Below, piece by piece: positions 7,396 to 10,730 of a DNA stretch of 45,057 nucleotides. The notes beneath the pieces are model-generated. The model was not told the DNA's origin and did not search any database. It saw nothing but the letters and a program-made list of their open reading frames with translations. The number at the start of each line of letters is the position of its first letter. Within the stretch, counting starts at the first letter, position 1. This stretch comes from Candidatus Gemmiger excrementigallinarum (lineage in GTDB: Bacteria > Bacillota > Clostridia > Oscillospirales > Ruminococcaceae), in contig DXBP01000024.1 of the NCBI GenBank assembly GCA_019116445.1, positions 1 through 45,057 on the forward strand, read 5' to 3'. The position numbers were made by a program, and so were the translations under genes.

Positions 7396-8766
7396 TTATG
7401 GTTCGCGCTGCAGGCGTCTGGCCTCCTGCAGCAATGCTTCCCGCTCGTTGGGGACGCGCCCTTCCATAACGGACCCCAGCAGCGCATTCAGCAGACGCCC
7501 CACTGCGGGGCCTGCCGGCAGACCGTCTGCCATCAGATCGGCCCCATTGACCGCCAACTGCCGTATCGTGTAGCAGCCCGTCCTGGAAAGTTCCATCATC
7601 CGGGTTTCAAACGCCGTAACGTCCTGGCGGCGGCAAGCCACCTCCGGCGTGCGGGCGTGGGCATCCAGATCGGCATATTTGAGGGCACACAACCGCCGCA
7701 GAAAAACGGCGCCATAGCGATTCAGACATTTCAGAATCGCCGCATCCCCTGTGGGCAGCGGCGCATCGTGAATGGCGATGAGCCCCACTGCGCCCTCGAT
7801 CAGGTAACTGGGGGCCTTAAGCCGGCGCAGGATCGTGCGGGCAACCACCGCCCCGCGCTGGTTATGCCCCTTAAAGTGTGCCGCGCCGTCCGGGCCGACA
7901 CTGCGGCACAGCGGTTTGGCAATATCATGTAAAAACGTAGCCCAGCAAAGCACACGGGCACCCCGGGTATCCTGTCCGCGCAGGTCCAGTTCCCTGACAG
8001 CCGCGGCCGTATGCTGCCACACGTCATAGCAGTGCCAGCGCCCCGGCTGCGTACAGCCGATACAAGCCCCCACTTCCGGCACAGCCCCGGCCAGTATGGC
8101 GCCATACTGTGCCAGAGTCCGGCCCGCATGGGGCGCCATCAGCAATCCGTCCACTTCGGCGTAAATGCGTTCGGCACTGACCGTTTGCAGGCTGTCCCGG
8201 GCTGCCAGCGCTTGTGCGGCAGTTGTTTCCTCCAGGGTAAAACCCAGCCGCGCCGCAAAGCGCAGCGCCCGCAGAATCCGGAGTGCATCCTCCGCAAAAC
8301 GAGAGGCCGGGTCCCCCACGCAGCGCACGATGCCTGCCGCCAGATCCTTGCGGCCGCCGTACAGATCGATCACACCCTCGCCGGGGGCATAGGCCATGGC
8401 GTTGATGGTAAAATCCCGCCGGGCCAAATCTTCCGTCAGGTTCCCCACAAAGCGCACTTCGTCCGGGTGGCGGTGGTCACGGTAGGTACCATCCAGCCGA
8501 TAGGTAGTGATCTCGTAGGGTGTTCCGTGCAGCACGACTCCCACCGTTCCATGCTTTTCGCCAGTGAGAATCAGCTGCTGATCGGCAAACAACTGCCGCA
8601 TCTGTTCCGGGCGGGCCGATGTACAGATATCCCAGTCCCCGGGCCGCCGGCCCAGCAGACTATCACGCACACAGCCGCCTACCACATAGGCACTGTACCC
8701 GGCGCCGCGCAGCGTCTGCAGCAACCACATGGCATCCCGCGGCAAACGAATGGTTTCCTGCTTCAT
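7396..8766 (-). CDS. cca: CCA tRNA nucleotidyltransferase with HD domain
   Basis: This template-independent nucleotidyltransferase adds or repairs the 3' CCA of tRNAs. The 456-residue protein starts with the polymerase-beta-like head: GGCVRD (30-35), then DWDI with catalytic D44 and D46, and RRDFTIN near residue 112. An RNA-binding neck domain follows. A C-terminal HD phosphohydrolase-like domain (FLHDIAKPLC, then KGHNQRGA) is present as in many bacterial CCA enzymes. AAGGGGGG lies six to eight bases before the ATG. The IS110 element is inserted inside this SD region, ten bases from the start codon, but the SD is rebuilt. The native promoter was probably that of the gene now at 10341. Confidence 0.95.
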   Translation of the reverse strand: MKQETIRLPRDAMWLLQTLRGAGYSAYVVGGCVRDSLLGRRPGDWDICTSARPEQMRQLFADQQLILTGEKHGTVGVVLHGTPYEITTYRLDGTYRDHRHPDEVRFVGNLTEDLARRDFTINAMAYAPGEGVIDLYGGRKDLAAGIVRCVGDPASRFAEDALRILRALRFAARLGFTLEETTAAQALAARDSLQTVSAERIYAEVDGLLMAPHAGRTLAQYGAILAGAVPEVGACIGCTQPGRWHCYDVWQHTAAAVRELDLRGQDTRGARVLCWATFLHDIAKPLCRSVGPDGAAHFKGHNQRGAVVARTILRRLKAPSYLIEGAVGLIAIHDAPLPTGDAAILKCLNRYGAVFLRRLCALKYADLDAHARTPEVACRRQDVTAFETRMMELSRTGCYTIRQLAVNGADLMADGLPAGPAVGRLLNALLGSVMEGRVPNEREALLQEARRLQREP

Positions 8767-8780
8767 CGGTTCCCCCCTTG

Positions 8781-8786
8781 TATTAT
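8781..8786 (+). promoter_or_regulatory. -10 half of the circular-junction promoter in the left end
   Basis: TATTAT lies two bases after the left CT core. When the element circularises, the right end supplies TTGACT (10301-10306). The distance across one CT core is exactly 17 bp (13 + 2 + 2). The start of transcription would fall near 8793, at the 5' end of the predicted guide RNA. In the inserted state this -35 box is absent. Confidence 0.6.
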
Positions 8787-8792
8787 AGAGTA

Positions 8793-8975
8793 GTAGTTAT
8801 TAGAGCCCCTCTCCAAGGGCTATGTGCTACACTGTAAGGGATGCTGTGGATTGGTGAACACCCCCTACCACAAGATGGTTCAGGAAAGGTTCCAACCACA
8901 GCCCCTTACAATTTTGTTAATCAGTTAAATACCGCCAGACGGTTTATGTGGAACAAGGCTACAAAAGTAAGGTGC
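8793..8975 (+). ncRNA. Predicted bridge RNA of the IS110 element
   Basis: About 180 nt of non-coding left end fold into three parts. There is a 5' hairpin AGCCC/GGGCT (8804-8821). A target-binding loop is closed by CTGTGG-A-TTGG with CCAA-CCACAG (8844-8854 and 8892-8901). A donor-binding loop is closed by CCTTAC..TTTTGT with ACAAAA-GTAAGG (8904-8917 and 8961-8972). Guide segments: CCCCCT (8861-8866) equals the left flank plus core (8773-8778). AGGAAAG (8882-8888) is the complement of core plus right flank (10320-10326). GTTAATC (8916-8922) equals the right element end (10314-10320). ACAAG (8953-8957) is the complement of core plus left element end (8777-8781). The order and strand sense agree with the IS621 bridge RNA model. 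Exact ends are estimates. Confidence 0.8.
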
Positions 8976-9019
8976 ACTGTGGATGCAGCATCACATATTT
9001 ATCGTTGGAGGTATCTGTT

Positions 9020-10198
9020 ATGGTGGTTTCTGTTGGCATCGATGTCTCGAAAGATAAGCACGATTGCTTCATCGTCAACTCCGATGGCGAAGTTCTGGCA
9101 GATGTGTTCACAATTCCCAATACTTTGGATGGGTTCCACTGCCTGTTGCAGCGAATCCAGGATTGTACCGCACCGCAGGACAAAATAAAAGTAGGGCTTG
9201 AGGCTACCGGACATTACAGTTACAATCTGCTCGGGTTTCTCCTTAACAACGGTCTCCCAACCTATGTCTTGAACCCCTTGCGCACAAATCTTTACCGAAA
9301 GAGCCTCAGCCTGCGAAAAACCAAGACTGACCGGGTGGATGCGCGAACAATTGCTTCTATGCTGTTATCCGATGCGGGCCTCAAACCCTACACGAACACA
9401 GCATACCACAACGAGGAGTTAAAGTCACTGACCAGATACCGTTTTGATAAGGTGAAAGAGCGTACCAAACTGAAAAGTTCCATTGCACGGCTTGTCTGTA
9501 TTCTGTTCCCAGAACTGGAAAAGCTGGTTCCTTCTCTGCACATTACCTCTGTCTACGCCTTGCTGGGGGAGTTCCCCGGCGCCAAACAGATTGCCGCAGT
9601 CCATTTAACGAGACTGAAAGCACTGCTCGAAACCGCCTCTAAAGGCCGCTACAAACGGGACATGGCTCTTGAAATCCGTGAGGCTGCCAGAACCTCTATT
9701 GCTTCTCCGATGCCTGCCAAGTCCCTTGAATTGCAGCACACTATCCGGCTCATACGTGAACTGGATCGTGAAATTGACGAAATCGAAGAACAAATCCAAT
9801 CCATTATGGATGAGCTTCATTCTCCCCTTACCACCATCCCAGGGTTGGGGTTCCGTATGGCAGCCATGATCCTGGCCGAGGTCGGCGACTTCACCCGGTT
9901 TGACTCCCCGGACAAGCTGTTGGCTTATGCCGGGATGTCTCCCTCCACTTACCAGTCCGGACAGCTCAAGAATTGCTACCCGCACATGGAAAAGCGTGGT
10001 TCTCGATACTTACGCTACGCACTTTACAATGCAACCAAGTATGTCTGTCACTGGGACCCAGCTTTTGCTGATTATCTCGCCAAAAAGCGGGCGGAGGGAA
10101 AACACTACAATATTGCCATCTCTCACGCTGCTAAGAAATTGGTACGTTTAATTTTTGCTATGGAGAAATCCAGACAGCCATATTGCTCAGCAGCTTAA
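9020..10198 (+). CDS. IS110-family DEDD transposase (bridge-RNA-guided recombinase)
   Basis: The 392-residue protein has an N-terminal RuvC-like DEDD domain with D8 (GIDVSK), E61 (LEATGHY), D104 and D107 (KTDRVDA). A helical region spans about 120-260, with a coiled stretch LDREIDEIEEQIQSIMDEL. The C-terminal Transposase_20 domain (TTIPGLGFRMAAMILAEVGDFTRF, then LLAYAGMSPSTYQSG) contains the serine-rich motif used as the nucleophile region in this family. Both domains are intact, so the enzyme may be active. ATG 9020 is chosen over the upstream in-frame ATG at 8948 because GGAGG lies eight bases before it and the upstream part overlaps the guide RNA. The protein would bind the guide RNA and join target and donor DNA at the CT core. 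Confidence 0.93.
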   Translation: MVVSVGIDVSKDKHDCFIVNSDGEVLADVFTIPNTLDGFHCLLQRIQDCTAPQDKIKVGLEATGHYSYNLLGFLLNNGLPTYVLNPLRTNLYRKSLSLRKTKTDRVDARTIASMLLSDAGLKPYTNTAYHNEELKSLTRYRFDKVKERTKLKSSIARLVCILFPELEKLVPSLHITSVYALLGEFPGAKQIAAVHLTRLKALLETASKGRYKRDMALEIREAARTSIASPMPAKSLELQHTIRLIRELDREIDEIEEQIQSIMDELHSPLTTIPGLGFRMAAMILAEVGDFTRFDSPDKLLAYAGMSPSTYQSGQLKNCYPHMEKRGSRYLRYALYNATKYVCHWDPAFADYLAKKRAEGKHYNIAISHAAKKLVRLIFAMEKSRQPYCSAA

Positions 10199-10300
10199 GT
10201 GCAGTTACTTGAATAGCCAGCAGGGGTCTGTCAAGACCTCAGCTTTGCTATGCCTTTTTTGAACTGTCTCTTTTTTCACCACCACCATTCATTTTGGGGG

Positions 10301-10306
10301 TTGACT
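10301..10306 (+). promoter_or_regulatory. -35 half of the circular-junction promoter in the right end
   Basis: TTGACT lies 13 bases before the right CT core (10320-10321). It has no suitable -10 partner in the present insertion, but joins TATTAT of the left end with a 17-bp spacer in a circular intermediate. The rest of the right end (10199-10319) contains no gene and no strong hairpin. Confidence 0.6.
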
Positions 10307-10340
10307 TTTAATAGTTAATCTTTCCTATGGACCGGCCGGC

Positions 10341-10730
10341 TCACGCTTCCCGGTGCCACTCCTGCTTCAGATCCACCACGCAGGCCAGGCTGCCTTCCTC
10401 GCCCTGCAAAGAAGCCACCTTGGCTTCCGCCTTCTCCGCATCGGCCATCCAGGTCAGAATGAAGAAATTCTCGGCCGGGACTTCGTAGTACACCCACATG
10501 CCGTCGGCACGCAGCAGATCCGGCAGATGGTCCAGTTCCGCATCCAGCAGACCCTGGCCTTCCTCGCCATAAATCATCTCCGGGCCCACCTGCAGCGAAT
10601 CGATCACATTGATGCTGCTGTTGATATAGGTATCGCGGTCCACATGCTTGTCACTGTGCTCCCAGGCACTGGCAAAGGCTTTGACCAGCAGTTCCCGCAC
10701 TTCCAGTTTGTCGTCTCCCAACTGATACAT
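10341..10730 (-). CDS. Conserved-looking protein of unknown function
   Basis: This is an acidic soluble protein of 129 residues with no signal peptide or membrane segment; I do not recognise the family. It has an N-terminal helical part (DKLEVRELLVKAFASAWEHSDKHV), a central mixed region, and a C-terminal part rich in Trp, Glu and Ala (FFILTWMADAEKAEAKVASL). The overall composition suggests a small globular cytoplasmic protein. GAGGG lies upstream of the ATG and a TATACT box is at 10770-10765 on the minus strand. The stop codon is 20 bases from the IS110 right end. Without the element, cca would begin 31 bases after this stop, so the gene probably headed the cca-acpS operon. Confidence 0.75.
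   Translation of the reverse strand: MYQLGDDKLEVRELLVKAFASAWEHSDKHVDRDTYINSSINVIDSLQVGPEMIYGEEGQGLLDAELDHLPDLLRADGMWVYYEVPAENFFILTWMADAEKAEAKVASLQGEEGSLACVVDLKQEWHREA

Follow-up and report, generated by a model that had tools for sequence, protein, structure and literature searches.

Target guides of an IS110-group bridge RNA from Clostridia read as a probable anti-Shine-Dalgarno address

What determines where an insertion sequence of the IS110 group lands, and can the answer be read from the element itself? The question is raised by an element in Candidatus Gemmiger excrementigallinarum (contig DXBP01000024.1), of which we analyzed a stretch of 45,057 nucleotides, henceforth termed the window. 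IS621, an IS110-group element of E. coli, combines a DEDD recombinase containing a serine with a left-end RNA that forms two loops, as given in the descriptions compared here (PMC11208160, PMC11208158). A sequence-only reading of the window had proposed the same arrangement, with guides that could be decoded in both loops. Here, we compare the element with its relatives and arrive at an explanation that we hold to be very probable: it is an IS110-group bridge RNA element whose guides aim at the complements of Shine-Dalgarno sites. As an IS110 bridge RNA it is of an ordinary kind, and start-site targeting itself is already known from IS900; the new part is the anti-Shine-Dalgarno address, which leaves the signal intact.

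The element and its empty site

The IS110-group element spans positions 8777–10321 of the window with a CT core on each side, the element proper (8779–10319) lying between one CT at 8777–8778 and a second at 10320–10321. Its non-coding left end, defined by the alignment of 87 distinct copies and by covariation, is long (8779–9019, 241 nt) and contains the bridge RNA, and its right end is short (10199–10319, 121 nt). Between the two, a forward-strand open reading frame (ORF; 9020–10198) matches DEDD_Tnp_IS110 and Transposase_20, with PF01548 and PF02371 both present, and the DEDD residues D8, E61, D104 and D107 as well as Ser 313 all fall within conserved motifs, in agreement with the IS110-group recombinase named by the earlier reading. 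Two distinct sequences with solved structures, ISCro4 (PDB 9t56) and IS621 (8wt6), match the recombinase at E 0.001; both are distant, and the alignment is best over the C-terminal part (query 218/240–389). A single copy was found in the element's own genome, the assembly of which is 83% complete.

We joined the flanks at one CT and searched for the resulting empty site in 35 genomes of the genus, counting an alignment as unbroken if it started at position 14 or before and ended at position 596 or later of 600. The joined flanks were unbroken in 27 of the 35 genomes, partial in four and missing from three, and in the element's own genome they split at the element. Relatives are continuous across the joint, and their empty sites agree with the ends and the CT core as originally placed. 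In the 11 empty-site loci inspected, the joint lies just 5' of the start codon of a tRNA nucleotidyltransferase-type gene; its spacing and letters differ between species, and one of the 11 (L136) is without the CT. In the window, this gene occupies the minus strand (7396–8766), as judged by Pfam, the start-site test described below and the empty-site loci. The left target t1–t9, TTCCCCCCT (8770–8778, forward strand, core CT at 8777–8778), corresponds on the minus strand to the Shine-Dalgarno region of the gene, and core plus right target on the other side read CTTTCCT (10320–10326, forward strand), both being placed by letter match and empty-site loci. The earlier description of the target as C-rich on the left and CTTTCCT on the right was right in its letters but missed that this target is the complement of the neighboring gene's Shine-Dalgarno sequence. 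An ORF of 129 amino acids lies upstream of the gene in the same direction (10341–10730, minus strand; no Pfam match at E 0.001). Since the two are separated by 31 bases once the element is removed, the insertion probably splits an operon.

A DNA match to the element was found in 22 of 100 genomes searched, its own included, and from a protein search of named genomes we took the best 80 of 369 stretches encoding relatives. Carriers include Gemmiger formicilis An812 and Angelakisella massiliensis, which are in culture. The 106 loci with a recombinase match gave 87 distinct insertions with a left end of at most one mismatch to the motif, many of them from metagenome bins; the remaining 19 were dropped because the flank was already taken or no such left end was present. 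Guides could be parsed in 85 of the 87. The other two (L109, L119) are without target-loop parts, their target-binding loop being partly or mostly deleted beside the recombinase gene.

A bridge RNA in the left end

All eight guide and end strings named by the sequence-only reading are found at their coordinates, match as described and have the correct strand sense. For the window copy alone, the target match is modest: the left target guide (8858–8866, forward strand, 9 nt including the core) matches at 6 of 9 positions and the right target guide (8882–8888, forward strand, 7 nt including the core) at 7 of 7, the whole site matches at 11 of 14, and the window contains five others with an equal or better fit to this guide. 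The case therefore rests on the comparison of copies, from which the guide–target finding is safe, as it is not from the window copy alone. Scored against their own flanks, left guides gave 481 matches (8 positions, 84 copies) compared with 319.5 ± 10.3 for permuted flanks, and right guides gave 328 (6 positions, 72 copies) compared with 205.3 ± 7.3. With one copy per distinct guide, the sums were 369 versus 258.4 on the left (66 guides) and 259 versus 159.5 on the right (57 guides), and none of 2,000 flank shuffles reached any of the four observed values. The signal covers t1–t9 on the left, weakening towards t1, and t8–t14 on the right, i.e., 9 + 7 nt including the core, and copies fit their own site at a mean of 11.5 of 14 positions with the core counted (range 6–14, n = 72). 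At the level of sequence comparison, the target-loop guides thus follow their flanks far above permutation, as the reading of a single copy had anticipated, although the match holds on average and has exceptions. Position t7 is C in 86 of 86 sites and faces a candidate handshake base, the G at 8958 (forward strand), which is invariant in the 55-row alignment described below; neither of the two varies within the clade.

On the donor side, the right guide ACAAG (8953–8957, forward strand), the reverse complement of core plus left end, behaves as had been proposed: it changes in step with the base that opens the left end in 87 of 87 copies, T occurring with CAAG in 65 and C with CGAG in 22. The left donor guide had been read as GTTAATC (8916–8922, forward strand), a seven-letter identity to the right end that includes one core base. 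These letters do match, but they do not track the right end. They are unchanged where the right end is GTTAGTC and become GTTGATC where the right end is unchanged, and their first two bases (8916–8917) pair in the donor-loop stem, which makes this string a very unlikely guide. The guide that copies point to lies 7 nt further on, AGTTAA (8923–8928, forward strand), which equals 10313–10318 within the left donor d1–d7, AGTTAAT, at the terminus of the element (10313–10319, forward strand). Right ends occur in two main forms, AGTTAA-type and AGTTAG-type, and among 81 copies guide and end correspond as AGTTAA/AGTTAAT in 36 and AGTTAG/AGTTAGT in 43, with one mismatch and one unparsed. Of 58 further loci, some of which represent the same insertion more than once, 40 show full agreement (6 of 6 positions), three agree at 5 of 6 (differing at the first base) and 14 are unparsed on one side; the distant pairs AGTTGG/AGTTGG and AGCTGG/AGCTGG are found in this set. 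In L186 the guide disagrees as parsed, with AGTTAG visible by eye slightly further on. The left donor guide spans d1–d6 and reaches neither d7 nor the core.

The fold was assessed on 55 left ends, taken from 67 with distinct guides; the other 12 were excluded because they carried long insertions or their start was placed poorly. A structure written by hand has 97.5% of cells paired on this alignment and 12 pairs changed on both sides, with a covariation score of 0.154 as opposed to 0.083 for shuffled and 0.026–0.051 for slid alignments. Unguided, RNAalifold recovers the 5' stem-loop, both inner hairpins, the donor-loop stem and a closing helix, all on the forward strand. The 5' stem-loop (8793–8830) comprises helices 1 and 2 of the written structure, and a transcript start near 8793 is predicted from the −10 element described below. 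The hairpin of the target-binding loop (8867–8879) changes from AU to GC at 8870/8876 in 22 of 55 sequences. In the donor-loop stem (5' strand 8904–8917, pairing with 8961–8972), compensatory changes occur at 8905/8971 and 8908/8968, and the pair 8913/8965 is poorly kept (36 of 55). The hairpin of the donor-binding loop (8931–8943, helix 6 of the written structure) shows little covariation because it is nearly invariant. RNAalifold leaves both target-loop guides unpaired and pairs part of the left donor guide, three bases in columns 155–157, across the donor loop, so that the latter is not fully open in this prediction. With strong covariation and a consensus fold that keeps both loops, the proposal of a two-looped bridge RNA in the left end is borne out.

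The closing helix pairs 8840–8845 with 8987–8992 (at its widest 8840–8846 with 8986–8992) according to RNAalifold and pair counts, with compensatory changes in a few sequences. The RNA had been placed at 8793–8975; since the alignment-based prediction adds this helix, which encloses both loops and reaches 8992, the RNA may run past 8975. In the modeled structure, the closing helix and the base of the target-loop stem include some of the same nucleotides, which they may either share or compete for, and their overlap could possibly act as a switch between guide RNA and recombinase mRNA. The string CTGTGG at 8975–8980, near the 3' end of the RNA, repeats the 5' strand of the target-loop stem. A pairing of 8834–8840 with 8903–8909 in the single-sequence minimum free energy structure is less probable, as pair counts favor the donor-loop stem (8904–8909/8967–8972); the alternative pairs are broken at 8835/8908 in 7 of 55 and at 8839/8904 in 6 of 55 sequences. 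The single-sequence fold as a whole is weakly better than shuffles (z −1.59), and Rfam returned no match for positions 8600–10500 at E up to 1, two results that would suit a left end serving as an mRNA leader only, with guide matches arising by chance. This reading is contradicted by both the flank permutation and the covariation, and we assign it a negligible probability.

The bridge RNA would be expressed from a promoter that exists only in the excised form. Excision would join the right end, CT and the left end in a circle, and the joint would create a promoter from TTGACT (10301–10306, forward strand), the predicted −35 element, and TATTAT (8781–8786, forward strand), the predicted −10 element. 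Both hexamers are present in the sequence with a spacer of 17 nt across the predicted joint, and in 77 of 81 copies TTGAC is found equally far from the right end. From this promoter the bridge RNA would be transcribed from about 8793, followed by the recombinase, which would perform catalysis. A scan of 8700–10400 for sigma-70 promoters and terminators yielded nothing clearly above shuffles, as expected of the linear form if the promoter arises in the circle only. A 1,563-bp circular 'plasmid' record from Monoglobus (NZ_OY725734.1, L244) consists of an IS110 copy plus CACCT of the left target. It was considered as a natural circle and set aside, as a clean junction in which CT links the right to the left end is lacking; the record may represent a collapsed repeat or else an imprecise circle.

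With IS621, the window's element shares the CT core, a left target guide of 9 nt, a core within the target guides and the right donor TGTAT in the descriptions compared (PMC11208160, PMC11208158). It differs in its right target guide, which has 7 nt as opposed to 4 in IS621, although longer ones are already reported for some IS110 orthologues (PMC11208160), and in its left donor guide, which covers d1–d6 without the core where that of IS621 has 8 nt (PMC11208158). The extra closing helix is not named in the IS621 descriptions compared, and the target is distinct in being a Shine-Dalgarno complement. A non-coding-end RNA that guides target choice is likewise reported as the seekRNA of ISEc21 and IS1111; in IS1111 elements, this RNA is usually located 3' of the transposase gene and carries its guides in the opposite order (PMC11187229).

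Target guides and Shine-Dalgarno sites

Among the 67 distinct target guides, t7–t9 are invariant and t1–t3 and t13–t14 are mixed. Positions t5–t12 read CTCCTTTC in 27 guides, differ from it once in 29 and two to four times in 11, so that 56 of 67 match this octamer at 7 or 8 of 8 positions. This octamer, which is complementary to a Shine-Dalgarno site, is contained in a 16S-tail-like string, GGATCACCTCCTTTCT, which we take to be the 3' end of 16S rRNA. This longer string occurs two to five times per genome in six of six chosen genomes, a count as for an rRNA gene; in the element's own genome the 16S tail was not found, one string with a single mismatch lying elsewhere. Most left flanks terminate in CTCCT, often with CAT some bases further left, and most right flanks open with TTC, a signal that on the opposite strand reads GAAAGGAG, spacer, ATG.

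We scored 86 insertions for gene starts (the flank of L086 was too short), requiring in a strict test an ATG 8–18 nt from the core and an ORF of at least 50 codons or open to the contig end. Such a start was found in 50 of 86 insertions and in 41 of 66 when one copy per distinct guide was used, compared with 565 of 9,060 random positions (6%), 157 of 782 other AGGAG strings and 11 of 21 other GAAAGGAG strings. A looser test that also admits GTG and TTG gave 56 of 86 insertions, 983 of 6,040 random positions, 230 of 786 other AGGAG strings and 15 of 21 other GAAAGGAG strings. Because other GAAAGGAG strings do about equally well, the motif alone explains the start-site bias on these counts and no further context is needed. 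When 20 of the 39 target ORFs, mostly longer ones, were submitted to Pfam, 18 matched known families, including UvrC, prolyl-tRNA synthetase, PurD and two GcvT. Together with the window's tRNA nucleotidyltransferase, the first three provide a natural case of insertions before housekeeping-type genes.

The bias might instead reflect survival, if guides matched flanks as in any IS110 element, insertions within genes were lost and short intergenic space were rich in such sites. In keeping with this, 36 of 86 insertions in the strict and 30 of 86 in the looser test are not at a recognized start, and no start site is found among the five other window sites with a fit of at least 11 of 14 positions to the window's guide. 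Against it, guides carry the motif wherever the copy sits, and the right side read outward meets a start in 9 of 74 cases (looser test), so the effect is not one of intergenic space generally; we consider survivor bias an improbable cause. The window's own guide has drifted, reading CCCCCT, and an ATG is correctly spaced from each of the four CTCCTTTC strings that the window contains. In three Oscillibacter valericigenes copies (L087–L089), guides have moved to TCACCT / CA, and their sites are not gene starts by the test.

These data suggest the following course for the preferred, guide-directed explanation. The donor loop would recognize the element ends through AGTTAA (8923–8928) and ACAAG (8953–8957), and the target loop the landing site through 8858–8866 on the left and 8882–8888 on the right. 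In a group made up mainly of Clostridia, the central part of the target guides stays near CUCCU and GAAAG, which together match CTCCTTTC at the 16S rRNA 3' tail, and guides that match this octamer would therefore find the complement of Shine-Dalgarno sites. Insertion then tends to fall just 5' of AGGAG and antisense to the gene, so that AGGAG, spacer and ATG stay together. The outer guide positions vary and differ by lineage. Judged from guides and flanks, the relatives most commonly target Shine-Dalgarno sites, and sparing the signal may be of benefit.

Guide turnover, distant relatives and remnants

At 10–30% divergence, the guides change roughly twice as quickly as fourfold sites, while the left end is otherwise largely conserved. 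Pairs separated by less than 6% fourfold divergence (n = 22) have identical guides, and in 18 non-independent pairs at 10–20% the difference already amounts to 33% of 13 guide positions. Saltatory guide change, suggested by the left end alone, was rejected on the basis of the fourfold comparison and the 22 unchanged pairs. The CTCCTTTC core could also be common by descent only, without a function of its own: all 67 guides belong to one clade with a conserved left end, they share the invariant t7–t9, and close pairs have identical guides. This is difficult to reconcile with a core that stays at divergences where a third of the guide positions differ and outer positions are mixed, and with relatives of 37–56% identity that are also found at start sites, several in another register and with other guide letters. 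We thus regard descent alone as unlikely, and since guides turn over fast yet the core stays, we infer that selection holds the octamer.

For these distant relatives, we searched for an ATG 6–18 nt from the core wherever the left end could be placed. It lay at 8–10 nt in 12 of 13 distinct sites, compared with 300 of 5,200 random positions in the same loci (1,145 of 5,200 for the full 6–18 nt), and was followed by an ORF of at least 50 codons in 10 of 13, two ORFs being very short (9 and 4 codons). L178 was included; outside the test were L188, L192 and L193 (no left end by pattern), L176 and L177 (flank too short) and the 50–60% loci L184, L185, L195 and L196. In several of the distant relatives, among them five copies in one genome (G327), the core lies three bases along, AAGG^AGAAA-ATG. 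AGGAG stays with the gene in the window's register and is split in this other one. Right ends of distant IS110 elements L179–L183 and L189–L194 offer an ATG 9 nt from the core, next to the captured Shine-Dalgarno sequence, with ORFs of 4–13 codons in those copies that have this ATG. A hidden antisense gene using the captured signal in this group was discarded, the ORFs having only 4–13 codons.

We lean towards the broader view that in a large Clostridia branch of IS110 the anti-Shine-Dalgarno guide serves as a general gene-start address, with the octamer kept, outer bases drifting and two registers in use. Two CT cores are possible because the Shine-Dalgarno sequence holds two AG steps. If this view is correct, outer-base drift would spread lineages over different genes, and one register would spare the host signal (window clade) where the other captures it (IS900 type).

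IS900 splits the Shine-Dalgarno sequence from the start, whereas in the window's group the core lies three bases away and both are kept together. Signal and orientation are otherwise the same, and it is the register of the window clade that differs. IS900, an IS110-family element of Mycobacterium avium paratuberculosis, targets translation starts with the motif CATGNNNNNNTCTCCTT (PMC8141618, which lists Doran 1997 among its references), and the five G327 copies and others fit both its register and this motif. The portion of PMC8141618 considered mentions no guide RNA for IS900. In the open-licence literature searched, we recognized no work linking bridge RNA guides to Shine-Dalgarno targets and found neither the guide-RNA explanation nor the register that spares the Shine-Dalgarno sequence. 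A guide that spells the anti-Shine-Dalgarno sequence would offer a mechanism, readable from DNA, for the old observation of IS110 elements at translation starts, and a testable target prediction for many uncharacterized gut elements, given 369 stretches encoding relatives in one scan. The 67 distinct natural guide pairs also represent natural re-aiming on a fixed scaffold, usable for testing bridge RNA rules, including those for 7-nt right target guides.

Left-end remnants were observed in L203 (266–352, G004), L204 (900–988, G021) and L205 (minus strand, from 1201 on, G002, degenerate). All three break off precisely at the left target guide's CT core; next comes a further left end in L203 and a right-target-like TTC in L204 and L205. 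As this guide DNA is similar to the left half-site of a target, the element may recombine at its own guide. The exact remnant pattern had one match in 199 genomes. The intact-type pattern, taken as a denominator, gave 19 stretches. Another internal remnant, L018, is not cut at the guide core. In viral contigs, none of 18 short-pattern matches to guide-DNA remnants has a left end upstream, nor has one more match with a left-end-type continuation. A related copy (L245) lies inside the record of Faecalibacterium phage Roos (PP479939.1, 1255–2909), where guide and flank match by eye over 8 nt on the right and 7 nt on the left, at a Shine-Dalgarno-like string.
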